A DNA stretch of 64,000 nt from Symbiodinium sp. CCMP2592. Lineage: Eukaryota > Sar > Dinophyceae > Suessiales > Symbiodiniaceae. The translations under genes were made by a program, and so were the position numbers. The stretch is from contig CAJNDT010005713.1 in the NCBI GenBank assembly GCA_905221615.1, positions 1 through 64,000 of the forward strand, written 5' to 3'. Under the pieces are notes generated by a model. The model saw only the letters and a program-made list of their open reading frames with translations, had not been told where the DNA came from and did no database searches. This document shows positions 18,136 to 60,797 of the stretch, piece after piece. Numbering within the stretch: the first letter of the stretch is position 1; each line of letters begins with the position of its first letter.

Positions 18136-19401
18136 ATGACTTCCACTCTGCTTGAGTCGGAAGCCGAGTTCTTGGCCAGAGCCCGAGAAATCGGTATGGA
18201 TGATGGTTTCGTCAAGTCGCTTCAAGCCGCAGGGATCAAAACCTTTGGAAAGCTGGCGTACATCTGTGCTGTCAGCCCGCAGAGTGGTGATGACACCCCT
18301 CTCATTCAGGCGGTGCAGAAGCTCTTGTCTCGCGACCTCACCCCGGGCGAGCTTCCTGACCTTCGACGATTGTGGTTTGAGGCCAACACGTTTGCCCTTT
18401 CTGATCTCAAGTCACGGGTGGAACGTTCTTCTCTTGATCCACCTCGAGAGCTTCCTTTGGCCGAGCGCCTGACTCGCCTACAGAATCAAAAGGCTCGGCT
18501 ATCAGGGATAGTGTTCACCGAACGGGTGGAACCGGCGCACAGCCTCATCGACAAAATCCAATCCATGGTCGATTCCGGGACGCTCACATACCTACCGCCG
18601 CATAAGTGCCCATCAAGAGCTTTGGAAATTTCCAGTGACAAACCTTCTCAACAAGTTACGCTTGATGCTCAAGGAGGCTTGAAAATATCGAAGAAACACT
18701 CCGACCTGGAATGCGACGTTCGAGGAGAACTTCGGCTTCGGGAGGCCTTCACCAGACGGGCGCTGGCCTTCGACCAAATCGGTCTCATGTCGTTTGCTGC
18801 CCAAGAGGCGTGGCACACCTACTTGTTTGACTCAGTGACTCGTGACCCTCCACCGGGTCACAAGTTCACCAGCATTGCCCAGGCTCTGAACGCTGACCGC
18901 GAGCTGTGGCAGATTCTTGCTCAGGAAAGTCGTGGCTCCATCAAGGTCATCGGGGGCGTCAAGCCCCCCCTGGATGTCTTCATCGAGCGCCTGCAGACCC
19001 ATACTCGTGTCAATGTTTGCTTGGCCAACCTTCCGCAGGCCACCGGTGGAGGCAAAGGCGACAAGGGCGATCGCGGTGGCAAGGCCGATGGCAAAGGTGA
19101 CCGCGAAGGCAAAGGCCGTGGTGGTCGCGGCAAAGGTCGTGGCGACAAAGGCGGTCAGAAGTGCAAGTGGGATGATGCTCAGGTGGACCCCAAGCGTGCC
19201 GAGATCTTGCAGTTGCTCAAGGAGATGCCTAAGGACTGTGTCTCGCGCATGCCCAAGACTCGTCAGTTCTTATGCGTGCTGTTTCAGCACGGCAAGTGCC
19301 CTGATCAGTCCAAAGCCCGATGCGACCGCGGCTTGCACAATTGCTGGCATAAGGACTGCCTCAAGAAAGGAGTGCCGTACTGCGAGTGCCGTCACTCTTG
19401 A
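18136..19401 (+). CDS. YR-1 Gag-like protein with CCCH zinc finger
   Basis: 421 codons from the ATG at 18136 (context GCCATGA; an upstream in-frame TTG is ignored). The N-terminal domain (GIKTFGKLAYICAVSPQSGD, then LRRLWFEANTFAL) is shared with all Gag proteins in this window. Residues about 310-350 are a Gly/Lys/Arg-rich RNA-binding-type region. The C-terminus has a zinc motif CPDQSKARCDRGLHNCWHKD and ends CECRHS. Likely the nucleocapsid/capsid protein (inference). It ends in TGA CTA G and Pol continues in the same frame. Confidence 0.82.
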   Translation: MTSTLLESEAEFLARAREIGMDDGFVKSLQAAGIKTFGKLAYICAVSPQSGDDTPLIQAVQKLLSRDLTPGELPDLRRLWFEANTFALSDLKSRVERSSLDPPRELPLAERLTRLQNQKARLSGIVFTERVEPAHSLIDKIQSMVDSGTLTYLPPHKCPSRALEISSDKPSQQVTLDAQGGLKISKKHSDLECDVRGELRLREAFTRRALAFDQIGLMSFAAQEAWHTYLFDSVTRDPPPGHKFTSIAQALNADRELWQILAQESRGSIKVIGGVKPPLDVFIERLQTHTRVNVCLANLPQATGGGKGDKGDRGGKADGKGDREGKGRGGRGKGRGDKGGQKCKWDDAQVDPKRAEILQLLKEMPKDCVSRMPKTRQFLCVLFQHGKCPDQSKARCDRGLHNCWHKDCLKKGVPYCECRHS

Positions 19402-19404
19402 CTA
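19399..19404 (+). promoter_or_regulatory. Leaky stop TGA-CTA between Gag and Pol (YR-1)
   Basis: The stop is followed by CTA G, the classic readthrough context UGA-CUA. After removal of YR-2 (19419-36254) the frame stays open as LGRSGLLCCGSAS into Pol, which has no ATG of its own at its start. Confidence 0.7.
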
Positions 19405-19419
19405 GGCCGCTCAGGCCTG

Positions 19420-19584
19420 CTTATTTCCGAAGCACCGTGCAAACTTCAAAAGGAATATGTGAAAGTCGAATATCATAAAGTATGAATTCAACAATCCACT
19501 CTTTCCAATGTATAAAAATTTGGGACTCTCTGCAATCGGACTCTTTCTTTCGCAACTGGGGCAAGGTGCTGGCAGTCTGAGTCA
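19420..19584 (-). repeat. YR-2 repeat B2 (terminal)
   Basis: 165-bp copy of B1 (19861-20025), beginning CTTATTTCCGAAG on the plus strand. It forms the left edge of the element in YR-1. Confidence 0.92.
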
Positions 19585-19663
19585 TAGGCTCAGGGATAGG
19601 CTCTCCTTGTCTTGGCATTCGTTGGCACTTGCCCAAGGGGAGGGAGGGCGGGACAAAAATTTT
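19585..19663 (+). other. YR-2 A2-B2 spacer with G-quadruplex motif
   Basis: 79 bp between B2 and A2. GGGGAGGGAGGGCGGG at 19637-19652 on the plus strand (non-coding strand of YR-2) fits a G-quadruplex with one-base loops. On the coding strand it reads AATTTTTGTCCCGCCC followed by further C-tracts, comparable to the spacers of YR-1 and YR-3. Confidence 0.85.
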
Positions 19664-19859
19664 CCTGCTCGCAAAGCTTGAGGGTTCATGCACGGCAACA
19701 AAGACATCGCGCAAACCTTCATGCTAAACTTGGCATGTACTGAAAAAGGGTTCGTGCCGAACAGCAGGAAAAATTTTACAGTAAAAGTTTTCACTAATTT
19801 CGTTTCAAACGAAATTTGCTTTTGGAAATAAAGGTTTCATCCTTGTTAGAGGAGTTCGA
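19664..19859 (-). repeat. YR-2 repeat A2
   Basis: 196-bp copy of A1. Contains a perfect 10-bp inverted repeat with a one-base spacer, AATTTCGTTT-C-AAACGAAATT, at 19796-19816. Confidence 0.92.
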
Positions 19860-19860
19860 C

Positions 19861-20025
19861 CTTATTTCCGAAGCACCGTGCAAACTTCAAAAGGAATATG
19901 TGAAAGTCGAATATCATAAAGTATGAATTCAACAATCCACTCTTTCCAATGTATAAAAATTTGGGACTCTCTGCAATCGGACTCTTTCTTTCGCAACTGG
20001 GGCAAGGTGCTGGCAGTCTGAGTCA
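19861..20025 (-). repeat. YR-2 repeat B1
   Basis: 165 bp. On the minus strand it starts with TGA, which is the stop codon of YR-2 Pol, preceded by a G4 run. One extra base (19860) lies between it and A2. Confidence 0.9.
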
Positions 20026-20826
20026 CCCCAATGGAAAATACTGCCGTGCCACCGCATCCCAGTCAACGCGAAGTCTCGAGCATCCAATATTCAAGAGACC
20101 CTCGTACTCACCCCTGCTGGGGGAGTCCGCAATGTTGCTGTGCGTAGGTACACGAGCGTACCATGCGTGGATTTGAAGGGATGTCTCCTTTGAGAGGATG
20201 CCATCGATAATCACACGAGCGAGTGCAGCGCCTCCGCCCGCGGCTATTATCGAATGGCGAGCACCTTCGTTGTCCACATAAAAAACAGCTTGAGAAAATC
20301 TGCACCACTGGCCCCAGAGCCTGTACGCAAGTAGGACAGGCAGAAGCTCAAGCTCGAAAATGGGGTTTTGCGAGTCTCGCAGCAAGATCCTCATGATGTC
20401 CTGTGGGACTTGCTCACTGAAGAAGGATATCGGACGGCCATTAAGGCCCACGATCACTCCTCCAATGGATCCCAGCTTTTTCCCGCCTTCGCAGGCTCCA
20501 TCTGTGAATATGATCCAAGACTGATGGTTCTTTGTAGCAATGGTCACAGGCTCAGCAACCCTCAGCCTCTCGCGAATGACAACAAGACTCTTCCTAACAT
20601 CTTCAGGCAAACTCTTCGTAGTCAGCCCCGCTCTGGCTGCACGGTCCACCGTTCGGATGGACGAGTTCGACATTCGCCCGAAAACAAACCCCTCGAAGAA
20701 CACCAACCTGCCTCGGAGCCTTTCAGCAGTTTTGAGGTCGAGACAATTGGCGCTCAAGATGCTTTCGATGAACACACTCAGCTCTTCTCGGCGCTCGGCA
20801 GTGTTCCCGATCCTCACAATTCCCCG
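20023..20826 (-). CDS. YR-2 Pol, C-terminal part: RT thumb and RNase H
   Basis: Continues Pol after the YR-3 insertion. Joining 29704 to 20826 reads LNDAP-RGIVRIGNTAERRE without a shift. RNase H motifs are IIFTDGACEGG (first Asp), ELELLPVLLA (Glu), VFYVDNEGA (Asp) and ARVPTHSNIADSPSRG. The stop codon coincides with the first three bases of B1. Confidence 0.87.
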   Translation of the reverse strand, partial: RGIVRIGNTAERREELSVFIESILSANCLDLKTAERLRGRLVFFEGFVFGRMSNSSIRTVDRAARAGLTTKSLPEDVRKSLVVIRERLRVAEPVTIATKNHQSWIIFTDGACEGGKKLGSIGGVIVGLNGRPISFFSEQVPQDIMRILLRDSQNPIFELELLPVLLAYRLWGQWCRFSQAVFYVDNEGARHSIIAAGGGAALARVIIDGILSKETSLQIHAWYARVPTHSNIADSPSRGEYEGLLNIGCSRLRVDWDAVARQYFPLG

Positions 20827-21154
20827 TTATAGATCCGGTCATCCATGACAATCACATATTTGAATCAAGTATAAGAGTCTTGATCAAATATCGCAGCTTC
20901 CATCATATAAAGAATTGTTGACCAAATATATTGGTCCGATCCAAATATATACAAAAGGATATGAAATTGAAGCAAAGACGCTCACACTTCTTTTCACGGC
21001 ACAGCCGAGAGTCGTGGGGAGTTTTCAAGGAAAACGAAGGTGCACAGGGCGTGCACCGGGCACTAAGAGTGCCCCTCCACTTAAGCAGAGGCACTGGGGT
21101 GCCCCCCAGCGTCCAGTCGCACGATGGAGTGCAACGTGACCACAATCTTCCCCC
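20827..21154 (-). repeat. YR-3 repeat B2 (terminal)
   Basis: 328-bp copy of B1. It carries three adjacent perfect hairpins: 21039-21057 (7-bp stem GGTGCAC/GTGCACC), 21058-21074 (GGGCACT/AGTGCCC) and 21090-21103 (GGCAC/GTGCC). Confidence 0.92.
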
Positions 21155-21169
21155 GGGCGGGTGGGCGGG
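21155..21169 (+). other. YR-3 A2-B2 spacer: perfect G-quadruplex motif
   Basis: The whole 15-bp spacer is GGGCGGGTGGGCGGG on the plus strand, the non-coding strand of the element. All loops are one base, which favours a very stable parallel quadruplex. Confidence 0.9.
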
Positions 21170-21496
21170 ATCAAAAATTCTCTGGCTCGATGACGAGACA
21201 GCTTCAGTGGCCACAATTCCGAGCATGAACAAAAGGATGTTTGCCGACAAAGTCAAAAATTCGTCGGTTGCTCAGAGAGTGGGTTCGCAAATCACAATAC
21301 AAAATTGTGAAAACTTGAACTGCAAAGCACTACTACGAGTAGCGCAGAGGATCACGATTGAAAGTTGTGAAAGCTGAAATGAAAAGCACTACTAAGAGTA
21401 GCGCGAGGGATTGTCATGGCCCAAAATTTTGTTGCTAACAAAATTTCGTTTGACCTAGGATCTATAAAACATCGACACGCACGCGTGAAGAGATGC
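21170..21496 (-). repeat. YR-3 repeat A2
   Basis: 327-bp copy of A1. It contains two tandem units of about 60 bp (21291-21350 and 21351-21410), each with a CACAAT/ATTGTG-type hairpin and a CTACT/AGTAG hairpin. It also has a perfect inverted repeat AAATTTTGTT-GCT-AACAAAATTT at 21424-21446. Confidence 0.92.
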
Positions 21497-21824
21497 TTAT
21501 AGATCCGGTCATCCATGACAATCACATATTTGAATCAAGTATAAGAGTCTTGATCAAATATCGCAGCTTCCATCATATAAAGAATTGTTGACCAAATATA
21601 TTGGTCCGATCCAAATATATACAAAAAGATATGAAATTGAAGCAAAGACGCTCACACTTCTTTTCACGGCACAGCCGAGAGTCGTGGGGAGTTTTCAAGG
21701 AAAACGAAGGTGCACAGGGCGTGCACCGGGCACTAAGAGTGCCCCTCCACTTAAGCAGAGGCACTGGAGTGCCCCCCAGCGTCCAGTCGCACGATGGAGT
21801 GCAACGTGACCACAATCTTCCCCC
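21497..21824 (-). repeat. YR-3 repeat B1
   Basis: 328 bp, beginning on the minus strand with GGGGAAGATTG, 13 bases after the Pol stop. Joined directly to A2. Confidence 0.92.
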
Positions 21825-21837
21825 TCTCGACTATGCG

Positions 21838-24800
21838 TTACGTTGCTTCAAGAGTGGCACCTGTGACAAAGCAAGTCGGCACGTCACGAGTAACAGGACC
21901 AAGGAATGCCAGCTCCTCCCATCTGCCTCGGGATGGCGGGTCCGCGATGTTGCTCTGGCTCGGTACACGATGAAACCACGGCAGGCACGGGCGTGCTTCA
22001 TCGGCGGCCTCCAAGTGAAGGAGGAGACTCCTCCAAGATGCATCGATCGAGTTCGAGTTGATGCAAGCACTCAAGACGCCGGAATGGTCGACGAAAAATA
22101 TGCATCGCTCGCCATCAATGTAACTCGACCACAGGATCCTGGCGAGCACGACCGCGTAAAGCTCGACCTGCCCTATAATGTGTTTCCTACCCTCGGCCCA
22201 TTGTCTGACGAGCTTGCTAGGAACCCTGCAACCGAAAGCCCTAGCAACACCCTCGCCGGGGACAAAGAGAACCCCACCGACACCAGTACTGAAGCTGCCC
22301 TCGCAAGGGTCGCATGCGCCATCTGTGAAGATGAGGACTGGGTTCGAGGCAGGGCTCGTCACAATGGCACGCGGCCTGCTCGCAAGAAGTCTTGCCCTCA
22401 GAACAGCCAAGGCATTCGATTGTGTATCCGTCAGGTTCAAGACACCCCCTCTGTCACCGAAGAGCCTGAGGTCGGCCAGGGCCAATCGCCCTGTGCGACC
22501 AAGCAGCTGAGCATCTGCGAAGCGAAGCTTTCCAAGAAGGGATGGCAACTCCCGCGTGTCTACCTGGCCCTTTTCAAGGATGCGGCCCAAGGACTGTTCA
22601 AGCATGGCAGCTCGTTCAGGCTTGTTCGATACGAAGATGCGGCCCATGTCAGGATCGGAGGTATCCAGCACGACACCCAGCGTTTCTGCAGTGCACGAGA
22701 ACGGCTTTTCTTTCTCGGACAAGGAGAAGCCAAACAGGTCCATGAGGGCATGAACTGCATTGTCAGTCCCGCCAGACAAGAACGAAGGGGTCATCGTCGG
22801 GAAATCGTCATAGTAGCAAGTCACGGCCACCCTCAAATCCCAAAGAACCCTCTGCAGGAATAATGCAACCCTGTTAAACTGCATGACCGAGGCTGAAGCT
22901 CCGAAAGGAAGAGTGTTACACACAAAGGCCTTGACGGCGCGGGAGCCCGGCTCCTTGAGCAGGATAATGGATTTCGGCCGCTCGCTAGGGTGCAGTGCGA
23001 GCTGCTTGTAGGCAGCTTGAAGATCGTAAGTTTTGCAGTGAGGGCGGACACGGTCAGGGTCCTTCCAAGCCTTATGGAGGGGTCCCTTGAGTCTCTCACC
23101 GGTGCTGAGCTCAAGATCGAGGGATCCTGAAGATTTTGCCGCACGGCAAACTTGCATGCACAGCCAGCAGATCTCATCGAGGGCCTTGAGAGTAACACGT
23201 TCAAAGCATCCGAAACAAGAGTTCACAGCGGCTTCCGAGAAGTCATCGATCGCACGCCACTTGCCCTGCCAGACTGCAAAACGCCGGCAGGCGTTCCAAC
23301 CTTCAGGGAAGTTGTCCCCCAAAGAGTCAACGTCGATCGGGCCGTCAAGCCAGCACTTCCCCGATCTGTTAGACTCCTCAAGCGTCATGTTCCAGAGCTC
23401 TTCGGCATAGTCATGGTCCTTCTGGGCTCTGACTTTTTCAAGCAGGGTTTCCCTCCGGAGGGGAGCACTTGCCCAGAAATCGTCAAGGTCCATCGTGGCA
23501 GGTTTGACATCACTAGCGAATACCCCCGTACGCCCCAAGTACCCCGTTAGCTTAAAGCCGGCAGCCAGGTCATCGAAGAGGGCCGTGTCAGGCCACGACA
23601 AGTCGGCGGCGATCCTCTTCATGAGTGCGATGCGCTTACAACCAAGGACCTTCCGCACACAAGGGTCCATCGCCGATCTGATTTTCTCTTCGTCGGGATC
23701 AAGCTGCTTGGCGAGGGCTCGCCACTGTTGTAGCTTCAAAAGGCGGTGCTTCATGGTGTCAACTGGGCTCTTCGTAAGAGTGTCAAACAAGACTCGCAAA
23801 AGTTCATCTGGAAGTGATTTGGCAGAATCGAAGGGGTGCACAACCAACTTTGCCTCGTTCAAGAAAGCTTGCATGGATCGATAAACGCCGAAAGTGTAGA
23901 ACTTGTTCCCCTCTGGGAGTCGCGAACCTCCCCTTTCAACTGACTCCCGGAGGAGCTTGGCGCCTGCAGGGACGCCTTGCCAAGAAGCCGAAAGGCAGTG
24001 CTTGGAGTTGAGAGTGGGAGCTGCAGCACTGGCGACTGACATAGTGTAAGCAAATTCAGAAATGATTGGCGGAAACTTGCGGCCACGAGGTTGCACCTGA
24101 CCTGCGGCACGCGCAGCAGAAACTTTGGAGGCCACTAGGCGTTCAGGCGCAATCCCTCGTGATGCAGCTGACCTATCCACGCATGAGACAATCCTTTCAC
24201 AAAGAAGTTTGGGATAGCCCGTCTCCTCAGCTGTTGCAAAAGAATTGCCCTGCTTACCCCACGGCAAGTGCGAGGAGCATCCCGGGCATGGTCCCGAAAG
24301 GCAGTGTAGAAGCTCCGAGTTTGTGAGGAGGGCTGTGGCCTTCTTGCGTTGTGACCCGTGGCGGCACGAGTCGAATGTGACGAAGGAGTGCTTGGCGACC
24401 AGCTCGGCCCACCTCGGGAGCTGCCACAGGTAACTGTGAAGAGGGTTTTCAACGGAGAAGGGAACATGCGGCATGGCATGCAGCAGCCAGTCACAGAAGG
24501 CGGCCATGCTATCATAAATGGTGTTTGCACTGTCCACTCTCGCCTGCTCCACTGGTGGGAGGCCGGGCAGGCCGCGCACATGACGGACCGAACGCAATGG
24601 CTTAGGGCCGGGACCGCACTCCCGAGCCCGGCTAGCGGTGCCGCATGGAGGAGCCATGTGCACCCAAGCAACATCGTACTCGGAGCAAATGCGTCGCAAG
24701 AAAGACCAAGTGCTGGCCAGGCGCAAGTCGAGCTGTAAAGTGTGCACACACGCCCGCTGTTTGTTGTGATGCCAGTCGATGGGCACGGCTGTGTATCCGG

Positions 24801-25761
24801 CCTCTTTGGCAACATAAGACAGCATAGCAGACCCACTACAGATTTCCAGAAACAGCGGTTTCTCATGCCTGGGAGTCCGCTCGGCTTGAGCTTGCGATTT
24901 CAAGCGTTTACAAGGAGGGTCGGCGGGTGAGGCGGGACTAGAACCCAAGGGAGCGGGGGCAGTAGGGCTAGACCCAGAAGGTGCACTCTCGACTGGCAAA
25001 ACAGGCTGAAGAGGCGGAGGGAGCTGTTGCGCTGCGGCAGCAGGAGCACACGGAAAACCCAATGGGAGCAACGTGGCGGGTTGCCCACCTGAAAGAGTGT
25101 AAAGTGTTACGACCCACCTCTCACCTGTGAAGGGCATCGTCTTATGCCACAAGTTGCACGGAAAACTAGTGGGGCAACAAAACGTGTCTACGATTTTACC
25201 CCTGATGTGCTTATCGCCCGCGACAGTGGCTTGAGAAGTGCCCGACGCATCTTCGAGCCAAAGTTGGCCCCCAGTGAAGGTGCCAAGCGTGAAAGTGTGG
25301 TTCAGCGAACCCGCTTGGTTCCCTGAGTCCCTGTGGAAATCTGACAAAGTATTCCTGCCCACGCAGATTGCATTCCAGGAAGCTTGAGGCAGAAGCTCCT
25401 TGAAAACGGAGTTCAGGCGCAATACGAAGTCCTGCATGGCAAGGGTGGCATGTGTCAAATGTTGCGGACTGCTGGCCCTGGGCCCAAAGTTGTAATACCC
25501 CGACTGCGTGGAGTTCACGGACGAAACAGACTTACGTTGCAACACAGAGTTGGGCCATTCAGCATTCTGAAGCAATTGCAAAAGTGAAGAAAATTTTCTT
25601 GTATCCACACTAGCACTCTGCTGACACGGATCAAGATGCTCTAAAGGAGAATCTGTCGGCGCAGGGAAGGCCTGCGGCGATGCAAAACTGTGCCCAGCCA
25701 AGCCTGGGCAATCCCGACTCTGAGTCGAGTGCTGCGAGCTGCAGGGCTCGCGTTCCGACTG
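21838..25761 (-). CDS. YR-3 Pol: 2OG-Fe(II) oxygenase, C5-methyltransferase-like, reverse transcriptase, RNase H
   Basis: 1307 codons in the same frame as Gag, directly after its TGA; the first internal ATG lies about 105 codons in, so it is most likely made as a Gag-Pol fusion. Residues below count from codon 25701. Oxygenase about 85-205: HxD in DFHRDS, FTGGQLWLE, distal His and Arg in NLWHKTMPFTGERWV. Methyltransferase-like about 283-505: LEICSGSAMLS, catalytic-type Cys in APPCGTASRAR, SVENPLHSY, SQRKKATA. RT about 810-1060: TYDLQAAYKQ, LPFGASASV, YYDD. RNase H about 1122-1265: IFTDGACD, VELYAVV, FFVDHSG, RVPSQSNIADPPSRG. All key residues are present. Substrates of the first two domains are unknown. 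Confidence 0.9.
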   Translation of the reverse strand, partial: QSEREPCSSQHSTQSRDCPGLAGHSFASPQAFPAPTDSPLEHLDPCQQSASVDTRKFSSLLQLLQNAEWPNSVLQRKSVSSVNSTQSGYYNFGPRASSPQHLTHATLAMQDFVLRLNSVFKELLPQASWNAICVGRNTLSDFHRDSGNQAGSLNHTFTLGTFTGGQLWLEDASGTSQATVAGDKHIRGKIVDTFCCPTSFPCNLWHKTMPFTGERWVVTLYTLSGGQPATLLPLGFPCAPAAAAQQLPPPLQPVLPVESAPSGSSPTAPAPLGSSPASPADPPCKRLKSQAQAERTPRHEKPLFLEICSGSAMLSYVAKEAGYTAVPIDWHHNKQRACVHTLQLDLRLASTWSFLRRICSEYDVAWVHMAPPCGTASRARECGPGPKPLRSVRHVRGLPGLPPVEQARVDSANTIYDSMAAFCDWLLHAMPHVPFSVENPLHSYLWQLPRWAELVAKHSFVTFDSCRHGSQRKKATALLTNSELLHCLSGPCPGCSSHLPWGKQGNSFATAEETGYPKLLCERIVSCVDRSAASRGIAPERLVASKVSAARAAGQVQPRGRKFPPIISEFAYTMSVASAAAPTLNSKHCLSASWQGVPAGAKLLRESVERGGSRLPEGNKFYTFGVYRSMQAFLNEAKLVVHPFDSAKSLPDELLRVLFDTLTKSPVDTMKHRLLKLQQWRALAKQLDPDEEKIRSAMDPCVRKVLGCKRIALMKRIAADLSWPDTALFDDLAAGFKLTGYLGRTGVFASDVKPATMDLDDFWASAPLRRETLLEKVRAQKDHDYAEELWNMTLEESNRSGKCWLDGPIDVDSLGDNFPEGWNACRRFAVWQGKWRAIDDFSEAAVNSCFGCFERVTLKALDEICWLCMQVCRAAKSSGSLDLELSTGERLKGPLHKAWKDPDRVRPHCKTYDLQAAYKQLALHPSERPKSIILLKEPGSRAVKAFVCNTLPFGASASVMQFNRVALFLQRVLWDLRVAVTCYYDDFPTMTPSFLSGGTDNAVHALMDLFGFSLSEKEKPFSCTAETLGVVLDTSDPDMGRIFVSNKPERAAMLEQSLGRILEKGQVDTRELPSLLGKLRFADAQLLGRTGRLALADLRLFGDRGGVLNLTDTQSNALAVLRARLLASRPRAIVTSPASNPVLIFTDGACDPCEGSFSTGVGGVLFVPGEGVARAFGCRVPSKLVRQWAEGRKHIIGQVELYAVVLARILWSSYIDGERCIFFVDHSGVLSACINSNSIDASWRSLLLHLEAADEARPCLPWFHRVPSQSNIADPPSRGRWEELAFLGPVTRDVPTCFVTGATLEAT

Positions 25762-25764
25762 TCA
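25759..25764 (-). promoter_or_regulatory. Leaky stop TGA-CAG between Gag and Pol (YR-3)
   Basis: Gag ends KQE-TGA; the next codon is CAG and the frame stays open for 1307 codons with no ATG in the first hundred. Confidence 0.7.
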
Positions 25765-27000
25765 CTCCTGCTTTTGGCCTAGAGCCTCAGCACGCAGCGG
25801 ACAGTCCAATGCAGGGTGCGACTTGCCGCACTTGGGCCATGCGCAAATGTGCAGGCCACGCACGCATCGACCACGAGTCACGGTTTCTCTGCATGTTTTG
25901 AGTCCATACCCAAAACATATGTTTTCACCAGCATTGGTGCATGATCTGCAGCCCGCCAGAGCGGCGGGAACCTTCCCGGATCCTTTGGTGCCCTTGGCAC
26001 CCTTCCCTGTGCCCTTCCGGCCTTTGCCCGGACGATCATACGGGCCCGGCCCGTGCGGCCTCGGCGGCGGTGCCACCTGCTGCGTGACTGAAGCGCCTGC
26101 TGCCCGAGGCATCGGCTGAAGCAGATGAAGCACCTCTGGTGACTGCCATGTGTCCTCGAAGATGGTGTCCAATGGACGCCCCCCAGCTTTGAGCTGGATG
26201 CCTGAGCGAGTCGCTTCTCCGAGAAGCTGCCAAAGCTTCCTGTCAGCCTGCTGACACTGATCAAGCGTGGGCTGCATGTGCGTCGACGGAGGTGCGTCGA
26301 GGCGCGCCGCAAGAAGGCGCTCAACCCACATGTGGTGACGATGGTAGTCAAGGATGTTCGCCATTTCCATAGCGATGCCGCGCCTTTGAAGCGCGAGCTG
26401 CAAGAGCAGCTCCGTGCTTGTATCGGCACGGACCTCAACCTTCGTCTCCGACCTGAGCTTGCCCGTACTGTCCAGCGAGAAGAAAGGCTCTCGCTTTGCC
26501 CCTGTTGAGGCCTCTTGTTCTTTGGAAACAAGCTTTTCCCACGGGACAAACTGCAGCTTGTCCTGTTCATACTGGGACACGAAGGAGTCGACGAGGCTAT
26601 CGGCAGGCTCAAGACGGTTCTTGATTGAAAGGCCCACAAGGCGTTTGCTCACTACCTCGAACCTCTCAGATCTCTCCGGGACGCTCAATTTTCTAGGGAT
26701 GGATTCATCCGTCCGCTCCACAAGCATCTTCATTTCCGAAGTGGTAACAGCATATGCTTCATGAAATAACCTTCGGAAGGAGCTTTTCTGCCTTACAGAG
26801 GGCGGCGTACCGAGGGCCGACTCGAACGCCGCAATGAGGTCCTTGTCATCGCCAGAGCCCGGCGTGTAGCTCGTCATGAAAGCGACCTTTGCGAGTGAAT
26901 CCACACCCACCTTCTCGAGTTTTTCGACATCCGCAGATGCCAAACCGACCTGGGCACATCGTGATTTGAATACTGGCCCCGACTCGGAGAAGGCCGCCAT
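25762..27000 (-). CDS. YR-3 Gag-like protein with CCCH zinc finger
   Basis: 412 codons; ATG at 27000 in GCCATGG-type context on the plus strand reading (CAT at 26998-27000). N-terminal conserved domain with VGLASADVEKLEKVGVDSLA and SFRRLFHEAYAVTTSEMKML. Central part charged, then a Gly/Lys/Pro-rich segment (RPGKGRKGTGKGAKGTKGSG). C-terminal zinc motif CFGYGLKTCRETVTRGRC followed by GLHICAWPKCGKSHPALDC. The same layout occurs in the Gag of YR-1, -2, -4 and -5. Confidence 0.84.
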   Translation of the reverse strand: MAAFSESGPVFKSRCAQVGLASADVEKLEKVGVDSLAKVAFMTSYTPGSGDDKDLIAAFESALGTPPSVRQKSSFRRLFHEAYAVTTSEMKMLVERTDESIPRKLSVPERSERFEVVSKRLVGLSIKNRLEPADSLVDSFVSQYEQDKLQFVPWEKLVSKEQEASTGAKREPFFSLDSTGKLRSETKVEVRADTSTELLLQLALQRRGIAMEMANILDYHRHHMWVERLLAARLDAPPSTHMQPTLDQCQQADRKLWQLLGEATRSGIQLKAGGRPLDTIFEDTWQSPEVLHLLQPMPRAAGASVTQQVAPPPRPHGPGPYDRPGKGRKGTGKGAKGTKGSGKVPAALAGCRSCTNAGENICFGYGLKTCRETVTRGRCVRGLHICAWPKCGKSHPALDCPLRAEALGQKQE

Positions 27001-27198
27001 GGTGTGCTGCTTGGACCACTACGAGCTAAAAGCAGCTGCAGGAGGGCTTTGCTCTTCATCAAATCACTCATCTTGCAGGACACGACATCCGCCAGATCTC
27101 TGCTCTTGCACAAATGACAACACTTGACCGGCTTGCGGAGCGCACGTGCACGACATCACCCTTTTGCACAAAATTGCAGGCACGAGCCGGATGCAGAG

Positions 27199-28965: not shown

Positions 28966-28980
28966 TTCACTACGGCTCCC

Positions 28981-29274: not shown

Positions 29275-29376
29275 CTGACACCCCGCGCCAGGGCGGGGAG
29301 TCGTGACGCCCTAAAGCCTTGAGATAAAGGGCCTGGAACCTGCTAGGACGCCGTTACAAGCCCCTAGCGGAGTCCC

Positions 29377-32645: not shown

Positions 32646-32648
32646 TCA
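32643..32648 (-). promoter_or_regulatory. Leaky stop TGA-CGG between Gag and Pol (YR-2)
   Basis: Gag ends HSFS-TGA; CGG follows and the frame remains open into the oxygenase domain. UGA-C context as in the other four elements. Confidence 0.65.
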
Positions 32649-33845: not shown

Positions 33846-34050
33846 TGCGCAGAGAAATCGAAAAGATGCCGACACAAAATTGGAGTGCACTCACCTGACA
33901 AATTAACTCATGAGTGTCCTACCACAAAGAGCTCGCAACAGGCTTCAGATTGAACCGCACGCGCGCTCAAGACAGCTCACACAGTGACTTCACCTGACGC
34001 CCTCAGCTCAAACGAAGCAGCTCAGCTCACTCACTGGAGAACAGATTTTC

Positions 34051-53445: not shown

Positions 53446-53634
53446 GCAGTCTCGAGAGTTGCTTCTAAAGTGCGTGGCTTTCCGCCACTTCCTCTTTGGA
53501 GCATGGGTTTGTCACCCATTACTCGGGAGCAGTCTCAAGAGTTGCTGCTGATTTGTGTGGCTTTTCGCCACTTCCTCTTCGGAGCCATCGCATCGTTCAC
53601 GAAGCTTGGGCTCTAGGACTGTGTAGTATCAGCC
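53446..53634 (+). other. YR-4 leader, second part: hairpin array
   Basis: Continues the array seen at 44781-45122. Type 1 hairpins GTGGC-TTTCC-GCCAC (53474-53488) and GTGGC-TTTTC-GCCAC (53557-53571); type 2 ATGGGT-TTGTC-ACCCAT (53513-53529). Each type 1 hairpin is followed by CTTCC. The GCGGC/GCCGC to GTGGC/GCCAC change is a compensated base pair. Confidence 0.75.
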
Positions 53635-54834
53635 ATGTCCCTGCTGAAATCTGAGGCGGCATTTGAAGAACTTGCCACGGAATGTGGTCTTTCAAGTGCT
53701 CAGCTGCTGATCCTGAAAGGGAAAGGTGTCTCGACAATGTCGTCATTGGCCTATGCTGTCACCACCCCGGGTGTGCAACCTACGGAGCTTGCCCTTCGTC
53801 AGCTTTTGGATACTGCCACTCCTGAAGCTGTTTCAGTTGGCGCCTTATCATCCATTAGGCGGTGTGTGTTTGAGTGCCAGACTTGTGTTGTGCAGCAACT
53901 CAAGCTCTCAGTTGAAGGGCATGAGGGAGACAAGAAATACGACCTCCCACCTGCTGAACGCACCAGCCGCATTGCGGCTCAAAAGACCAGGCTTGTCGGT
54001 TTTGAGTTAACCGGCGCGATGGAGTGCGCATATTCCTGCTACACTCTTGTGGGCTCCATGCTTGAAGCCGACTCGCCAATTTATTTGGAGCCCCATAGGT
54101 TCATCACCAGGCAACAGGAGGTTTGCAGAGAAAAACCCAAGCGTGAGATCGTGCTCGATGGGGGCACCAAGCTCACTGTTCGTGATCAGCAGAGTCGTGA
54201 TCGTTGCCAGATCACCAATGAACTTCAGCTCTGGCAGGCTCTTACACGTCGGAGCTTAGCCTGTGACCTTATGGGTGCCATCAGCTTCCAGGTGCAAGAA
54301 TCTTGGCACCGCTTTCTGTTCGATCGCATGGCTCAGCCTCCCCCTCCGAGGTGCAGCAAAGTTTCCATGGAGCAATTGTTGAGGGCTGATCGTCAGGCTT
54401 GGGTTCAGTTGGCTGAGACGGTTAAGACGCTTAAGAGGGATAGTGCCGGCGTGTTGCCTCTTGATGCTGCCTTCCCGGGTCTTCGCACTGACCCTGCTGT
54501 CCTGTTCAACCTCCTTCCTTTGAGGTCGCCTGATCCTCCTCAGAAGATCCCGAATCCGGATAGGGGCAATGGTAAGGGCCTTGATAAAGGTATCAAGAGG
54601 GACTCTGAAGGCCAGCCTCGAAAAGAGTCCCAGCTTCCTGATGCCCTCAAGAACATTCCAAACCTTAAGAAGAAGACCTCGAAAGGCAAGCGACTTTGTT
54701 GGGCATACAACATCAAAGACAGGGGGTGCAGCCATGCTGAGGCTGGCAAAGCTTGTCGCTTCGGTCTTCACTTGTGCATGCGCTGCGAGAAGCCTCACCC
54801 CCAGTTCGAATGCCCTGCAGCTTCTGCTTCTTGA
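53635..54834 (+). CDS. YR-4 Gag-like protein with CCCH zinc finger
   Basis: 399 codons from the ATG at 53635 (CAGCCATGTCC). N-terminal domain (LLILKGKGVSTMSSLAYAVT, then SSIRRCVFECQTCVV), a short basic stretch (RGNGKGLDKGIKRDSEGQPR), and a C-terminal zinc motif CWAYNIKDRGCSHAE, then ACRFGLHLCMRCEKPHPQFE. Ends TCT-TGA-CTC. Intact. Confidence 0.84.
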   Translation: MSLLKSEAAFEELATECGLSSAQLLILKGKGVSTMSSLAYAVTTPGVQPTELALRQLLDTATPEAVSVGALSSIRRCVFECQTCVVQQLKLSVEGHEGDKKYDLPPAERTSRIAAQKTRLVGFELTGAMECAYSCYTLVGSMLEADSPIYLEPHRFITRQQEVCREKPKREIVLDGGTKLTVRDQQSRDRCQITNELQLWQALTRRSLACDLMGAISFQVQESWHRFLFDRMAQPPPPRCSKVSMEQLLRADRQAWVQLAETVKTLKRDSAGVLPLDAAFPGLRTDPAVLFNLLPLRSPDPPQKIPNPDRGNGKGLDKGIKRDSEGQPRKESQLPDALKNIPNLKKKTSKGKRLCWAYNIKDRGCSHAEAGKACRFGLHLCMRCEKPHPQFECPAASAS

Positions 54835-54837
54835 CTC
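54832..54837 (+). promoter_or_regulatory. Leaky stop TGA-CTC between Gag and Pol (YR-4)
   Basis: After the stop the frame reads LSRESGETCTDEAPQ and stays open through Pol without an ATG near its start. Confidence 0.7.
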
Positions 54838-57328
54838 TCGCGCGAGTCCGGGGAGACCTGCACTGACGAGGCACCTCAGGTACCGGCTCCTTGTGCAAGC
54901 TCCCCTATCCCCATTTTAGATGACATTTTTCCTTTGCTGCCTGACAAGGTTGATGCTTCTGCCGAGGTTAAACATCCGGCCGAGGAATTTTCGCTGGGTG
55001 TATTGACATCTGGCACCGCTCCTTCGCGCAAGGACGTTTTGCATCTTTCCACACTTCTTCCCTTCGATGCTCCTCAGCCTTCTCGGGATTTAGGTAGTGC
55101 CGGTCAATCGTGGACCACGGGTCTGTACACCAAAGGTGGTATCACGGCCCTTCGATCTAATGTGAAATCCTTTCCATTTTCGTCTTCTCTGCTTTTTGCT
55201 TTCATCAGAGCCATCAGTCCTTCCTTCGAGTGCACCAGTGCTGCTCTCTTTGTCGACTCGCAGACAGCTCTGCATCGCGACAGCTACAATGCGCACCTAC
55301 CCAATCTGTTGATTGGGGTCAACTCCTTCTCAGGTGGCCAACTTTGGCTCGAGGGAGAGGGACCTCATCCAATGACCGATCCTTCAGGTGCCCAGCTTCA
55401 TGGACAGCTGCACGAAGTCTCCCTCAGTCATCTCACTTTCGAGGCTTGGAAAAACAGACACTGCACAATGCCTTTTTTGGGGTCTCGAGTAGTGGTAGTC
55501 GGGTTTTCGGTTGCTAGACACGAGTCGATGCCTCTGGCTTGTCGCAGTGCTCTTGTATCCTTGGGTGTGCCCTTGCCTTCCATTGAGTGTGGTACTGATG
55601 GTGCTCCTGTGCTGGAGCCTCTCCCGCCAACTGTGCAACCCTTCTTGGACAGAGTTAAACTGCGTATCTCTGGTCGTCCCTCGAGTGACATAGCATTCCT
55701 TGAAATCTTTGCCAGGCATGGTGGTGTGTGTGCGGCTGTGCGCAGCCTCGGCATGCAAGGTTTTGCAATCAATCGTCATCCCCGAAACACTCGGGCTCCT
55801 GTCGTTCCGCTGGACCTTTCCACTGACAGCGGCATTTCGCTTTTGCGAGACATCCTTTCGAAGGATAATGTTGTTGCTGTGCACATGTCACCTCCTTCCA
55901 ACTTCAGTGACCTTGCAGTAAGCATTTACACGGAGTGTTGTGCCAATGGTCTTCTTTGCTGCCTCGACGCCCCGTGCAGCTCCAACCTTTGGAAACTTCG
56001 TGACCTCCGGGGTGCCTGTCCGCAAATCTCCACCCACTACAGTCCTTGCTTCGTGCACGACGGGCTGTGTCAGCATCGGCGCCTGATTCATAACTTCCCT
56101 GCACTGTCAAGCCTTAGCTTTCCGTGTGGAGGGGGATGCAAACCACCAAATCCGGCGTTGCCTTTGTCTTCGTCCCCTGGTCAGCTTTGTGCCATGGTAG
56201 CAAGGGCCTTTGCTGTTGAATTGCAACACCAGGGTGCTCAGTTTCCTGCAGCAGAACTTCAGGAGCTTGGGCTCCCGTTGGCACGAGCCGCTCAGGTTGC
56301 CTCCGGAAAGCAACCCAAAGGCAAACGTGTTCCGCCTTTGGTCTCTGAGTACAAGTCCATCATCACTGTCACTGGCCCCTCTTGTGCTATGCCCCCGAAG
56401 CAACTCTCAGAAGATTGGGCCATTCCTGATAAAGTCTTGTGCAAGCCCTCCTTAAAGCGGCTACCCAAGACCGCCAAGCTGATTCGCACTGTGCCGTCTG
56501 CTGGGGGTCCCTGCAGTGCTACTCGAGAACTTGGTTCTGATAGTTCGGGTTTAGCCCCTTCCTCCCCTGTGGACGACTCCTTAAAGCCTGGCGCCCTACT
56601 TGATGCCTGTTCGAAGCCTGGCGATGGCCACTCTCTTGCCGCAGTCCCGCATGAGGAGCGAACATATGGTATCGCGTGGACCCCAGAAGAGTTCGTCAAA
56701 CAGGCTCGCGGAGCCCTACACCCCAAGCGTATCGAAAATGGTGTGCCAAAGATTTTAAAGGAGACCATTGTGCGATGCGCCCAGGAGTCACCTGCCGACC
56801 TTGCCAGGGAACGCACTGCTACGTTGAGGAGGTGGATGCTTACCTCCGAGGAGGCGGCATCCCGTGCAGATCCCTCCGACATGCCCGACCACTGCGCCGC
56901 AGTTCTTGGTAAGAAATCCATGAAAGTCTTCAAATCCCTCTTGACTGAGGCCGAGTACCCGGACACAACCTTGACCAAGGACATCTCAACTGGGTTTAAC
57001 CTTCTAGGCCCCATACCCGCATCTGGAGTCCTTCCCTCTAAGGTTTCCGCTGCCTCGCTTACCGTTGAGGACGTTCGTGCAGCCACTCCCCTTGCCAGGA
57101 AGGCCATCCTGACCTCTACCAGAGAAGGTTTCGACCGCGAGGTGGCTGAAAGTGTTTACCAGCTTACGAAAGATGAGCTTGCGAAAGGGTGGCTTAAGGG
57201 ACCTTTTAAGGAGTCGGACATCCCCCCGGATGCCATAGTCACTAGAAGGTTTGGGATAGTGCAATCCTCCACCGATGCCAAGCTAGGGTCAATCAAGAAG
57301 GTGAGACCAATAGATGATTACACGGAAT
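54835..57328 (+). pseudogene. YR-4 Pol: oxygenase, degenerate methyltransferase-like domain, start of RT (cut by YR-5)
   Basis: In frame with Gag. Oxygenase: HxD in TALHRDSYN, FSGGQLWLEGE, distal His and Arg in NRHCTMPFLGSRVVVVG. Methyltransferase-like: AFLEIFARHGGVCAAV, RAPVVPLDLS, but MSPPSNFSDLA replaces APPCGT, so the catalytic-type Cys is Ser, and DAPCSSNLW stands where VENP is expected. The RT N-terminal region reaches KKVRPIDDYTE, where the sequence changes to the spliced leader at 57329. RT palm and RNase H are missing here. Confidence 0.85.
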
Positions 57329-57350
57329 TCCGTAGCCATTTTGGCTCAAG
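57329..57350 (+). other. Dinoflagellate spliced-leader (DinoSL) relic at the start of YR-5
   Basis: The 22 bases match the DinoSL consensus completely as I recall it, ending GTAGCCATTTTGGCTCAAG, with T at the variable first base. DinoSL is added to the 5' end of mRNAs by trans-splicing, so its presence in genomic DNA marks reverse-transcribed mRNA. It lies exactly where YR-4 RT homology stops and YR-5 begins. Confidence 0.92.
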
Positions 57351-57463
57351 TTTCCTCAATCAGTGTGAATGAGGAAAACAAATTTTGTTGGGGCCTTTGA
57401 GGTTCAGGACCCTGCATTGAACCAGGGCCCCTCTCTCGACGTTGGGCTTAGCCCACCGTGCAC

Positions 57464-57484: not shown

Positions 57485-57505
57485 AGATGGCAGCAGAGCT
57501 GAAAG

Positions 57506-58537
57506 ATGGGCGAAGGTGATGAATCTGCCCCGTTCGACAGTCGGGCAGTGGCCTTTCATGCAGCTCATACTTGGAATGCTTATAAGAGATCGGTAGGCAT
57601 CTTCCCGAGCCCTCCAGAACAAATGCATTCGCTCTTCAGGAGAAGCTGCCTCTTGCCTAGGCCGACAGGGCTCTTGCCCCCAGCGCCGGGTCCAGGGCCG
57701 ATGGCCGCTTCTTCCAGCTCCGGCCCAGATCTTGGAGCTTCGCAGTCAGCATTCCTTGCAGCGGGACTGAAGCCATTGTCAGCCCGAGATGCTCACTTAA
57801 GGTCTAAGGCCCTGGATGCTAATAGGAAGTGTGCCTTGAAGAAGTGGGTTACGCTTGTTTCCTTGGATTTTAACGCCTGGGGTGTAGCCAAGCAAGCCAT
57901 GGGGCCTTTCGATCCTAAATTTGCCACAGGAGGCTTGGTGGAAAGTGTGCAGGATTGTCTTGCAGACAAAGCCACAGCTACCTTGCACCAACGCGTGGGA
58001 CCCATCTTCAGATACGTGCACTTCTGGAAGCTTCAGTTCGTAGTGTGCCTGCCTGTGAGAGAGCACCAGCTCTACGATTACTTCAAGGCAAATCCGAATG
58101 CGGCCCCGACTTCATTCAGGTCGCTGCTTATCGCTTTCAGCTTCGCCAAACATTTGCTAGGCTTGATCGTGTTGGACGAAGCCCTGAGCAGCGGGAGAAT
58201 CGTAGGGCTTGCAAATGCTCATTACTCGACGAGGTGTGCAGTTAAGCGCAGGCCTGCTCTAACCGTGGAGCAAGTCAAGCGACTTGAAGCTCTCGTGCTC
58301 AGCCTCCTCCTAGCGCGGCCAATGGACCGAATCGCAGCTGGGTGTTTTCTGCTTATGATATATGGTCGCCTACGGTTTTCGGACATGCAACGCTCTTCAG
58401 GTTTCGCGATTGATTCAGCTTTGATTGATGGCGTGGAATCAGGGTACCTTGAAGGGCAAGCCGAGAGGACCAAGACATCGGTGTCGCTTGAAAGGAAGAT
58501 CCGCTCTCTTCCCATCGCTGAAATGTGTAGGAGGTAG
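57506..58537 (+). pseudogene. YR-5 tyrosine recombinase, N-terminal part
   Basis: 343 codons from the ATG at 57506. Core-binding region (ATLHQRVGPIFRYVHFWKL), then the catalytic Arg in MIYGRLRFSDMQ. The frame ends at RSLPIAEMCRR just as the conserved region continues one frame over (VGGRPWIRAWLEL), so an indel lies near 58526. YR-3 has an uninterrupted counterpart (RYLPMAARKVGIKCAWADAW). Confidence 0.83.
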
Positions 58538-59273
58538 GCCTTGGATCAGAGCATGGCTTGAGCTTCGAGAGGCAGAGGGTCTCGATAGTTCGTATCCTAC
58601 ACTTCCGTGCCCCGCAACCGGAGGCGGGTGGACAAGACTTCCGCTTAAGGTCTCAAGTGGAGGCGCCTGGCTGAGAAGTTTGATTCCTGGCGCGAGTGCA
58701 GCATCTGGCGACGTCCAGATCGCGACCCACTCTTGTAAGAGTACACCGCTCTCCTGGATGGCGAAAAGAGGCGTGCCGGCCGGCCCTCGTCGCACTCTGG
58801 GTTACCACGTACCGCGTAAGGACAAGTCGTTGATCATTTATGCCAGGGATTCACCAGCGGCTCCATTGCGCGAGCTGGACCGGGTCATCGACGAGATTGC
58901 TGCCGGTAGATTCAAGCCGGATCTCACTCGAAGTGGGATGATAGCCAATCTTGTAGATCCACAGCTTCCACCTGAGCATGAGGAGGAGGCTGACGCCATA
59001 TCATCGAGCTCTAGCGAGGCGTCCGATGATGAGGAAGAGGCTCCCGTGAGTGACGAGGAGCAGGCCTTGGAGCAGATTGCCGGTCAGTGGGGCCCCGAGC
59101 CCGGCGACGGGCCTTGGGCTCGTCACAAACAGACTAGGTTTTTGCACAAGGTGAGAGATGAGGCCGGGACCCACTTGAAGTGCGGTAGAGCGATCTCAGT
59201 GCGTTTTGAGATTTTAAGTGAGGCGCCAAGATTTATGTATCCTACGTGCGCCACCTGCTTTCCGAACTCCTGA
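58520..59273 (+). pseudogene. YR-5 tyrosine recombinase, C-terminal part
   Basis: Continues after the frameshift: His box ATHSCKSTPLSWMAKRG (HxxK), LGYH, putative nucleophile Tyr in SLIIYARDSP. Acidic linker, then the C-terminal module WARHKQTRFLHKV, LKCGRAISV, TCATC. The open frame extends back to 58425, but only the part from about 58520 is homologous. Confidence 0.84.
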
Positions 59274-59548
59274 GGTTCAAAAGCCGTGTCAGGAGTCAAC
59301 GCCACGCGTAGGCGAAAATCGCGGGGTCTGAGAAAAGGCAACATGCAAATGTCACCTTGGTCGTGGATGATTAACCCGCGCGATCTCGTAGTGACTGCTT
59401 ATGTCTTGGAAGTGCAGAACTACAAGTGCTGTTTGAGCGATGCTTGTCACGTGAATTGTGTGGTGCACTAGGGAGCTGCCGATGACAAAAGTGATTGCAA
59501 GGCGTGCTGGGCCCTAGACTGAGCTTGACAATCTAGAAAGAAAGAGCC

Positions 59549-60190
59549 ATGTCGTTTGGAGAGAGTGCGGCTGTCTTCAAGGCGCGAGCCAAGGACATTG
59601 GAGTTTCAGATCAGAGCTTCGCGAAGCTTGAGGCGGAGGGGCTGACAACGATGGCAACTTTCGCCTTCTGTTGTCATTTCAACCCGTCTGCGACAGACGA
59701 GAAGCCTCTCACCGACCTGGTGACCAAGGTTCTCGGTGCTGCGCCTTCCCTTAAGGAGATGAGTTGCTTTCGGCGTCTGTTCGCCGAGGCATACGCAACT
59801 GTTGCATCCGACATACGAGCTCAAGTGGAAGCAACGGAGGATTCATCGATCAAGAAATTAGCTCCGGCCGACAGGGCTGAGCGTTTGCGGGAGCAACAGG
59901 CCAGGCTCAAAGGTCTTGACTTGAGGGGCAACATGGAGCCAGGCGATTCCTTGATAGATCGTGCTGTGGCGATCTACGAATCTGACAGACTCCAATATGT
60001 GGAGTGGCAGCATTCTGTCAGCAGGCAGCATGAGCTTCTTACCGGGCTCAAGAAGGATGCATCGCTTACTTTGGATTCTGCAGGCGGCCTGAAAATTGCC
60101 AGCAAGCCCAATGTAACTCCTTGCGATGTGTCAAATGACATGATGGTTCGCTACGCTTTAGTGCGAAGGGGCCTAGCGCCTAGCCTTTGA
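59549..60190 (+). pseudogene. YR-5 Gag-like protein, N-terminal part
   Basis: 213 codons from the ATG at 59549. Conserved N-terminal domain (FAKLEAEGLTTMATFAFCCH, then SCFRRLFAEAYATVASDI). It ends prematurely after RRGLAPSL because GCCTAGC is duplicated in tandem (60171-60177 and 60178-60184). Removing one copy would give an uninterrupted RGLAFEQASIM reading. Confidence 0.85.
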
Positions 60191-60794
60191 ACAGGCGAGC
60201 ATCATGGCATACCATTTGCACGATGAGTTGCTTGAAAAGTACATGTCGTTCAGGCTTACCGACCCTCCTCCGAATCATGCAAGGGTGAGCTTGAAACAGA
60301 TTGAGCAAGCTGACCGACAATTTACCTTGTTGCTCGCGGAACACACTCGCAGCGGCATCAAGGTGAAGGCGGGAGGATCGCGGCCATGCGATGATGCATT
60401 CCGCAAAGTGTTCGAGAGCACTGAGTTCCTCTCGATGCTAACCCCGAGGCCTCTTGCAGCGGGATCAGGAGCTAGCCGTGACGCTTCCTCTGGTGATGAG
60501 CCCCCGATCAAGCGCCATAAGGGCAATGGCAAGGGCGTAGGTCGTGGGCGCGGGGGTAAGGGCGCCGGCAAAGGATCCACCAATGCCAGGGTCCCGGCAG
60601 AGCTCCTCGCACTCGGGTGCGTGGCCGCCATGCCTAAAGGACATGCCTTATGCTTCGATTACTCGCTAGGGAAATGCTCCCGAGCAGTGGCCAACCAAAG
60701 GTGTGAAAGGGGATTGCATTTGTGTGCAGTCAAAGGATGCCACAGAGGGCACCCAGCCAAGGAATGCCCTGCGAAAAAGGCGCCTTCGTCGTGA
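60191..60794 (+). pseudogene. YR-5 Gag-like protein, C-terminal part with CCCH zinc finger
   Basis: Resumes after the 7-bp duplication. Gly/Lys/Arg-rich stretch (KGNGKGVGRGRGGKGAGKG), then zinc motif CFDYSLGKCSRAVANQRC and GLHLCAVKGCHRGHPAKEC. Ends TCG-TGA-CTA. Confidence 0.85.
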
Positions 60795-60797
60795 CTA
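60792..60797 (+). promoter_or_regulatory. Leaky stop TGA-CTA between Gag and Pol (YR-5)
   Basis: UGA-CUA context as in YR-1. Here the next in-frame codon after CTA is ATG (60798), so internal initiation is also possible in this copy. Confidence 0.65.

Follow-up and report, generated by a model that had tools for sequence, protein, structure and literature searches.

Type II stop-codon readthrough uses UGA followed by CGG or CUA, or by less leaky CNN triplets, often with a stem-loop 6-12 nt behind the stop (PMC11166343). The same source describes viruses with UGA-C in 8/8 sequences, UGA-CUA in four and no conserved AUG, for which readthrough was argued likewise. Among gammaretroviruses, murine leukaemia virus makes Gag-Pol by readthrough of a single UAG between Gag and Pol, which share one frame (PMC4178896). 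The retrotransposon Tca2 of Candida albicans has UGA between gag and pol, and its junction alone gave no readthrough in yeast, so that the mechanism stayed open (PMC2194720). Here, we describe a same-frame UGA between Gag and Pol in five elements, YR-1 to YR-5, found in a stretch of 64,000 nt from the dinoflagellate Symbiodinium sp. CCMP2592 (contig CAJNDT010005713.1, positions 1 to 64,000; the whole stretch is called the window). The elements are best explained as tyrosine-recombinase (YR) retrotransposons of the DIRS/PAT-like kind, and programmed readthrough of the UGA is very probably the way in which their Gag-Pol would be made.

As in type II viral readthrough (PMC11166343), UGA is followed by CUA or CGG or by a less leaky CNN, the frame is kept, a conserved AUG is lacking and a coding signature lies behind the stop. 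Unlike in these viruses, the stop lies between two genes of a retrotransposon, Gag and Pol; a general 3' stem-loop was not found, and C is missing in 6/33 clusters of junctions. The arrangement of one stop with Gag and Pol in one frame is that of murine leukaemia virus, which is a long terminal repeat (LTR) retrovirus using UAG and a pseudoknot (pseudoknot, PMC11166343), whereas the present elements use UGA without a common structure. Tca2 likewise is a retrotransposon with UGA at this place, yet it is a single LTR element (PMC2194720) and here a whole clan is seen, with CUA enriched.

The elements resemble SymbioDIRS-Dnmt3 of Symbiodinium in the dinoflagellate host, the A-coding-B-A-B split repeats, the two domain orders, the cytosine-methyltransferase domain in Pol together with reverse transcriptase (RT) and the separate tyrosine-recombinase open reading frame (ORF) (PMC5890265). 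They differ in an additional AlkB-like domain, and no Pfam DNMT match was reached here. In the available main text of that article the word “gag” has no occurrence and no Gag/Pol stop is described; DIRS methyltransferases are described there as Dam-like. DIRS1-like, PAT/Kangaroo and VIPER elements also encode a tyrosine recombinase, and split direct repeats as in PAT/Kangaroo and an insertion (that of YR-3) without target duplication are further likenesses (PMC3266345, PMC6681497), but YR lies upstream of Gag in the present elements. The word “readthrough” is absent from the main texts of both articles. The available part of PMC8226300 holds no description of readthrough for YR retroelements, retrotransposons or dinoflagellates, and none was found among the top-listed open-access papers on readthrough in these three; an earlier note on this DNA knew of none for tyrosine-recombinase retroelements. 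AlkB domains have been reported in orchid Ty3/gypsy elements (PMC9289625); for DIRS elements with AlkB in dinoflagellates, none of the three open-access papers listed deals with such elements, judged by title and beginning of the abstract. Readthrough itself is known; the signal seen here is of the viral type, in a retrotransposon order for which no description of it was found.

Gag ends with TGA-C in all five elements, at 19399, 32648, 25764, 54832 and 60792, as the earlier note had stated:

19399..19401, + strand: YR-1 Gag stop TGA, then CTA G (sequence; relatives)
32646..32648, - strand: YR-2 Gag stop TGA, then CGG (sequence; relatives L109 with CGG and L110 with CAG)
25762..25764, - strand: YR-3 Gag stop TGA, then CAG (sequence; cluster with 19 fetched copies, all TGA CAG)
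54832..54834, + strand: YR-4 Gag stop TGA, then CTC (sequence; relatives L089 and L090)
60792..60794, + strand: YR-5 Gag stop TGA, then CTA ATG (sequence)

Pol was further said to lie in the frame of Gag throughout. This can be read in YR-2, YR-3, YR-4 and YR-5, and not in YR-1, because YR-2 was inserted about 20 nt behind the YR-1 stop and a short stretch is missing. Relatives with an intact junction (P0075, P0071; L069-L072) have LGRSGL or a near variant directly behind the stop, then PTTDAAPFAIFVELCCGSASLSHAA. Compared with them, the window copy lacks about 13 codons, and the frame of YR-1 is therefore taken from relatives L069-L074, where the claim holds. A methyltransferase start 7 codons behind the YR-1 stop, obtained by joining the flanks in frame as an empty site, was dropped; the intact relatives have 20 codons there. 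YR-2 carries a frameshift in Pol, and YR-5 carries frameshifts in YR, Gag and Pol. The first in-frame ATG behind the stop is found at codon 29 in YR-2, 109 in YR-3 and 180 in YR-4; among YR-1 relatives it stands at codon 71 in L069-L073, with none within the L074 stretch. The YR-5 junction, TGACTAATG, has ATG at codon 2. The absence of a nearby ATG proposed for YR-1 to YR-4 fits YR-1, YR-3 and YR-4 well and YR-2 less; it does not fit YR-5, which had been excepted.

To look beyond the window, Gag of YR-3, YR-1, YR-4 and YR-2 served as queries against the genome of 1,098 Mb, giving 100, 97, 103 and 102 places, respectively. These 402 listed places are the best-scored only, and the four lists may overlap. 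From them, 108 junctions (L001-L048, L069-L128) of this one genome were picked by hand for diversity, and 102 were readable (47/48, 19/20, 19/20 and 17/20 per batch). Left out before counting were L017, L080, L099, L111 and L122, which had no recognisable in-frame Gag end or were frameshifted, and L127, which has a deletion; L049-L068 repeat 20 copies already taken and were counted once.

The stop is TGA in 102/102 readable junctions, a pattern far from chance, and copies with TAA or TAG, named in the earlier note as contrary evidence, number 0/102. C comes next in 92 junctions, A in 5, G in 4 and T in 1, and the following codon is CTA in 43, CAG in 25, CTC in 12, CGG in 9, CAA in 3 and another in 10. 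When the 102 junctions and those of YR-2, YR-4 and YR-5 of the window were clustered (at least 75% identity over at least 120 nt), 33 clusters were obtained, in which, by the commonest context of each, TGA occurs in 33/33, TGA-C in 27/33 and CTA or CGG in 19/33. The claim of an invariable TGA-C therefore stands without exception for TGA, and the C is missing in six clusters and in copy L073, amounting to 10/102 copies. UGA-CUA had been called a known leaky context; 19 clusters have CTA or CGG, the known type II triplets (PMC11166343), and this context is a tendency of the clan, not of every family. The frame behind TGA exceeds both other forward frames in length in 101/102 junctions and meets no further stop within the stretch in 91/102. 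Homology to Pol lies in this frame (E below 1e-3) in 73/102, the other 29 stretches being too short for that, and no junction with a different frame was seen. Two candidates for fused Gag-Pol copies among the listed places were discarded: the longest open frame, C753 (1139 aa), appears deleted across the junction (L127), and the second-longest, C4936 (827 aa), has TGA (L082).

Other stops of the same elements served as control, with one terminal stop per family (10 YR-ORF ends and 7 Pol ends, read by hand in the window and in 20 longer copies). They are TGA in 11/17, TGA-C in 4/17 and followed by CTA or CGG in 1/17, against which the Gag stops of the 33 clusters are enriched in all three respects (one-sided Fisher p = 8e-4, 9e-5 and 3e-4). 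The control stops being mixed, TGA-C is not simply a general habit of these elements. Ends in the 20 stretches that were frameshifted, cut or not assigned were left out, such as YR of L052 and L061 and the unassigned ORF of L058 and L064, as were Pol of L054, of the first part of L056, of L065 and of L066 (the L066 end is TGA-C); the YR end of L065 was included, assigned by position.

The first ATG behind the stop lies within 10 codons in 12 of the 102 junctions, at 11-50 in 20 and past codon 50 in 43, whereas the stretches of the remaining 27 contain no ATG; in L030, L031 and L032 the first one stands at codon 492. Conserved sequence precedes it in several families. In YR-4, the first ATG is downstream of a conserved HRDS motif, in YR-1 relatives the methyltransferase motif CCGSA begins at codon 21, and an alignment of Pol N-termini has a common helix and the AlkB-like core upstream of the late ATGs. 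The predicted structure of YR-3 Pol is folded from helix 54-66 onward, so that a start at codon 109 would cut the modelled fold. A start codon of its own for Pol, which would have contradicted the earlier note, is hard to place in families without ATG for 109-492 codons despite conservation; 32/102 copies do have one within 50 codons.

Within families, the ratio of nonsynonymous to synonymous divergence (dN/dS) of 15 pairs is 0.09-0.57 for a segment that starts at codon 51 and stops at 108 or 150, and 0.08-0.23 for the part after it, up to codon 490. L060 and L061, neither of which has an ATG upstream of codon 492, differ by a dS of 0.056 and a dN of 0.022 over codons 51-491. Six between-family pairs are largely saturated and say little. 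These values point to purifying selection on the region behind the stop, past about codon 50; the first 50 codons look like a loose linker. Codon usage prefers the Gag frame among the forward frames in the four elements tested (YR-2 to YR-5), weakly in YR-3, although over the initial 50 codons of YR-5 the preference is lacking. In 10/12 family pairs (not in L060/L062 and L055/L056), codons 1-25 and 26-50 have diverged less at synonymous sites than codons 351-800, which could reflect a constraint at the RNA level, with recombination of Gag and Pol modules as a confounder. L049 and L051 are about 99% identical in Gag protein and reach a Pol dS of 1.3, a contrast that we read as module exchange between families near the junction.

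The Gag proteins preceding these stops are encoded as follows:

18082..19401, + strand: YR-1 Gag ORF, zinc-finger-like C-terminus
32646..33890, - strand: YR-2 Gag ORF
25762..27018, - strand: YR-3 Gag ORF
53617..54834, + strand: YR-4 Gag ORF
59552..60794, + strand: YR-5 Gag, one frameshift near 60178

The five are roughly 24-42% identical to each other, and their common stop is therefore not copied from one recent event. A C-terminal motif was found by pattern in 29/56 Gag matches of the protein collection, and 29/29 of these end 14-27 residues behind GLHxC; the collection shows the end of Gag only, not the identity of the stop codon. The other 27/56 are cut short or wrongly modelled, or they escaped the pattern (P0034 carries the motif by eye). 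Some distant families (L120-L126) have a longer tail, with as many as about 30 residues following the last Cys. The name Gag is given from position and the zinc-finger-like C-terminus. Relatives were not found in viral and GTDB collections at the sensitivity used, and sequence searches of Pfam and PDB gave weak matches only. Profile positions 13-42 have a weak similarity to the N-terminal part of RAD51 (E 0.15), which we take to be, perhaps, a helix-hairpin-helix.

The Pol regions behind the stops are these:

36258..39996, + strand: YR-1 Pol (DNMT-like, AlkB-like, RT, RNase H), start lost at the YR-2 insertion
21838..25761, - strand: YR-3 Pol (AlkB-like, DNMT-like, RT, RNase H), in the Gag frame
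29704..32645, - strand: YR-2 Pol, 5' part, frameshift near 32220, the remainder beyond nested YR-3
20023..20826, - strand: YR-2 Pol, 3' part (end of RT, RNase H)
54835..57372, + strand: YR-4 Pol, end before or within RT
60795..64000, + strand: YR-5 Pol, frameshift near 61580, continuing past the window end

RT is indicated by an RVT_1 match under the Pfam cut-off and a profile match to the RT of MMLV. An AlphaFold model of YR-3 Pol residues 1-531 (mean pLDDT 67, pTM 0.44) has low confidence in its N-terminal part, as far as about residue 51. With this model, Foldseek lists human ABH2 (E 5e-6, TM-score 0.49 over the target), DNMT1 (E 3e-5) and DNMT3 among its matches, with modest scores, and residues 54-235 and 300-530 are accordingly modelled as an AlkB-like dioxygenase beside a DNMT-like domain. 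The DNMT-like domain has no PF00145 match in Pfam. H143, D145, H206 and R215 of the AlkB-like domain are nearly invariant, and the order of the two domains in YR-1 Pol is reversed with respect to YR-3. It is possible that one retrotransposon Pol carries a writer of methyl marks together with a potential eraser.

Several observations weigh against readthrough. Codons 1-50 behind the stop are weakly constrained (dN/dS 0.24-1.53 in 15 pairs), and in YR-3 one antisense frame scores above the Gag frame in codon usage. Other ORF ends of the window elements are TGA-C in 4/8 against 5/5 Gag stops, which is not significant (two-sided Fisher p = 0.10), and TGA-C in the window alone was rejected as proof. 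The C at +4 fails in the six clusters mentioned, and the 29/102 junctions without a Pol match are followed by linker stretches of 60-114 codons that are short or cut (26/29 are open to their end). Copies of one genome are not independent, which clustering lowers and does not remove. A common 3' stem-loop is not visible in 27 junction representatives that were folded, the mean z being -0.5, -0.2, -0.9 and -1.1 in the intervals 3-63, 9-69, 9-109 and 9-159, with z below -2 in 2, 2, 8 and 6 of them. On these scores and scant covariation, a general 3' RNA structure was rejected; single families (YR-3, L024/L027, L045/L046 and L087) may have a stem-loop, judged from folding with scant covariation. 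L087, which has no C after TGA, forms a very stable hairpin immediately downstream of the stop (z -5.5, interval 3-63), a single case. Finally, introns spanning the stop link Gag to Pol in NCBI gene models, most of them from Symbiodinium sp. CCMP2592.

Such models would agree with alternative splicing, the main rival, in which a weak intron would remove the end of Gag with the UGA to give a Gag-Pol mRNA, while unspliced RNA gives Gag. Dinoflagellate introns allow non-GT donors, and P0002 and P0003 have one modelled junction in common. However, among near-identical copies of the YR-3 family the models let Pol resume at residue 30 (P0001), 103 (P0002, P0003), 137 (P0006) or 323 (P0004), and the model mapping exactly to the window (exons of P0002) drops the methyltransferase stretch PPCGTASRARE and joins two nested elements. 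For these reasons, the modelled introns were rejected as real and look like artefacts of forcing an open frame. Splicing is improbable also in that it explains neither TGA in 102/102, nor CTA and CGG, nor the same frame. Neither TGA nor the same frame is needed if Pol is started separately, be it on a trans-spliced RNA, internally or by re-initiation behind the stop. Dinoflagellate mRNAs are trans-spliced, the ATG at codon 2 in YR-5 (TGACTAATG) fits such a start, and an ATG occurs by codon 10 in 12/102 copies and at 11-50 in another 20. In 43/102, though, it comes beyond codon 50, in 27/102 it is absent from the stretch, and conserved sequence lies upstream of it, which makes a separate start very unlikely; a start at a non-AUG codon is conceivable.

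Dedicated decoding of UGA, by selenocysteine or a suppressor tRNA instead of near-cognate misreading, would suit an invariant UGA (102/102) with a variable +4 base. The enrichment of CTA and CGG, on the other hand, points to ordinary context-driven readthrough, and the window has no Rfam match at gathering score, the selenocysteine insertion sequence (SECIS) included, and no tRNA by ARAGORN with the bacterial code; we give dedicated decoding hardly any credence. Least probable of all is removal of the UGA by nuclear RNA editing (e.g., A-to-G, turning UGA into UGG). Nuclear editing and, contentiously, ADAR-like candidates have been reported in Symbiodinium microadriaticum, yet the table available there counts no stop-loss edits in one of its columns and a single one in the other (PMC5357065). 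Editing does not explain CTA or CGG behind the stop, and no hairpin around the stop is common to the five window elements, YR-5 alone having one (z -3.8).

Programmed UGA readthrough as first proposed is thus supported by the sequences, namely by 102/102 TGA, the frame, the late ATGs and the 19/33 type II contexts. The sampled copies have an invariant UGA at a conserved position, the same frame, many families without upstream starts, purifying selection and enrichment of type II context; the readthrough event, its rate, the inserted amino acid and the packaging of Gag-Pol are what we infer. Most ribosomes would release Gag at the conserved UGA, whose distance from the last zinc-finger-like Cys ranges from a few residues to about 30. 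In a minority, a near-cognate tRNA would put an amino acid at UGA, and these ribosomes would continue in the same frame into Pol; a C directly behind the stop, for the most part in CUA and otherwise in CGG, CUC or CAG, would favour the insertion in most families. The resulting Gag-Pol would bring the AlkB-like dioxygenase, the C5-methyltransferase-like domain, RT and RNase H into the particle at a low ratio.

Three of the elements are nested in one another:

14082..40826, + strand: YR-1 element, split direct repeats A1 14082-14328, B1 39998-40283, A2 40276-40522, B2 40541-40826
19420..36257, - strand: YR-2 element, within YR-1, A1 36059-36257, B1 19861-20025, A2 19664-19862, B2 19420-19584
20827..29703, - strand: YR-3 element, within YR-2, A1 29377-29703, B1 21497-21824, A2 21170-21496, B2 20827-21154
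15918..18002, + strand: YR-1 tyrosine recombinase ORF, upstream of Gag
34051..35985, - strand: YR-2 tyrosine recombinase ORF
27199..28980, - strand: YR-3 tyrosine recombinase ORF
43842..44780, + strand: tyrosine recombinase ORF, C-terminal part, given to YR-4 by position
57503..59273, + strand: YR-5 tyrosine recombinase ORF, one frameshift

The split repeats, in the order A1 - B1 A2 B2, are 99-100% identical in YR-1, YR-2 and YR-3, YR-4 and YR-5 being cut copies. YR-3 entered YR-2 (20826/29704) cleanly, without target duplication and with the RT frame kept; YR-2 entered YR-1 with the loss of target codons described above. The gene order is tyrosine recombinase, Gag, stop and Pol in YR-1, YR-2, YR-3 and YR-5, and would be the same in YR-4 if the fragment at 43842-44780, assigned by position, belongs to it. 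The ORFs called YR are homologous among the elements and adjoin Gag and Pol, and the four scanned had no Pfam match; the label is tentative, taken from the earlier note, from motifs of the H..GHH..Y type and from PMC5890265. A Copia-like element (45122-53441) separates YR-4 Gag from the recombinase fragment. It has 156-bp repeats and one minus-strand ORF of 2411 aa, which contains a 21-nt tandem repeat (51324-51533), and the element is so labelled by reading of the ORF, not by a search. Elsewhere, positions 1-2076 are an array of 57-bp tandem repeats, pyrimidine-rich on the + strand, and 3727-11536 (minus) has four long ORFs, of which the three scanned (3727-5028, 6355-9753 and 9632-11536) gave no Pfam match. 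The ORF at 12456-14090 (+) has a weak integrase-core match under the cut-off (E 0.01). NCBI proteins named SLC24A2 and F25B4.6 (P0001-P0008, P0071, P0075) are models of retrotransposon Gag/Pol, and their cellular gene names are probably annotation errors.

With hundreds of listed copies in one dinoflagellate genome, the superfamily offers about 100 natural UGA contexts for studying dinoflagellate termination. Since UGA is invariant in the sample and the following C is not, a property of dinoflagellate translation specific to UGA may be decisive; that a leaky release factor or an efficient UGA-reading tRNA is exploited by the whole superfamily seems to us conceivable, if rather unlikely. If true, host proteins extended at UGA-CUA stops would be expected as well, and it would be a recoding system that we have not found described for dinoflagellate nuclear genes. 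Readthrough would also account for the broken or mis-spliced public models of these abundant genes, and for names such as SLC24A2 among them. Tyrosine-recombinase retrotransposons would join the known cases of programmed UGA readthrough, and the missing Gag-Pol step of these elements would become testable.

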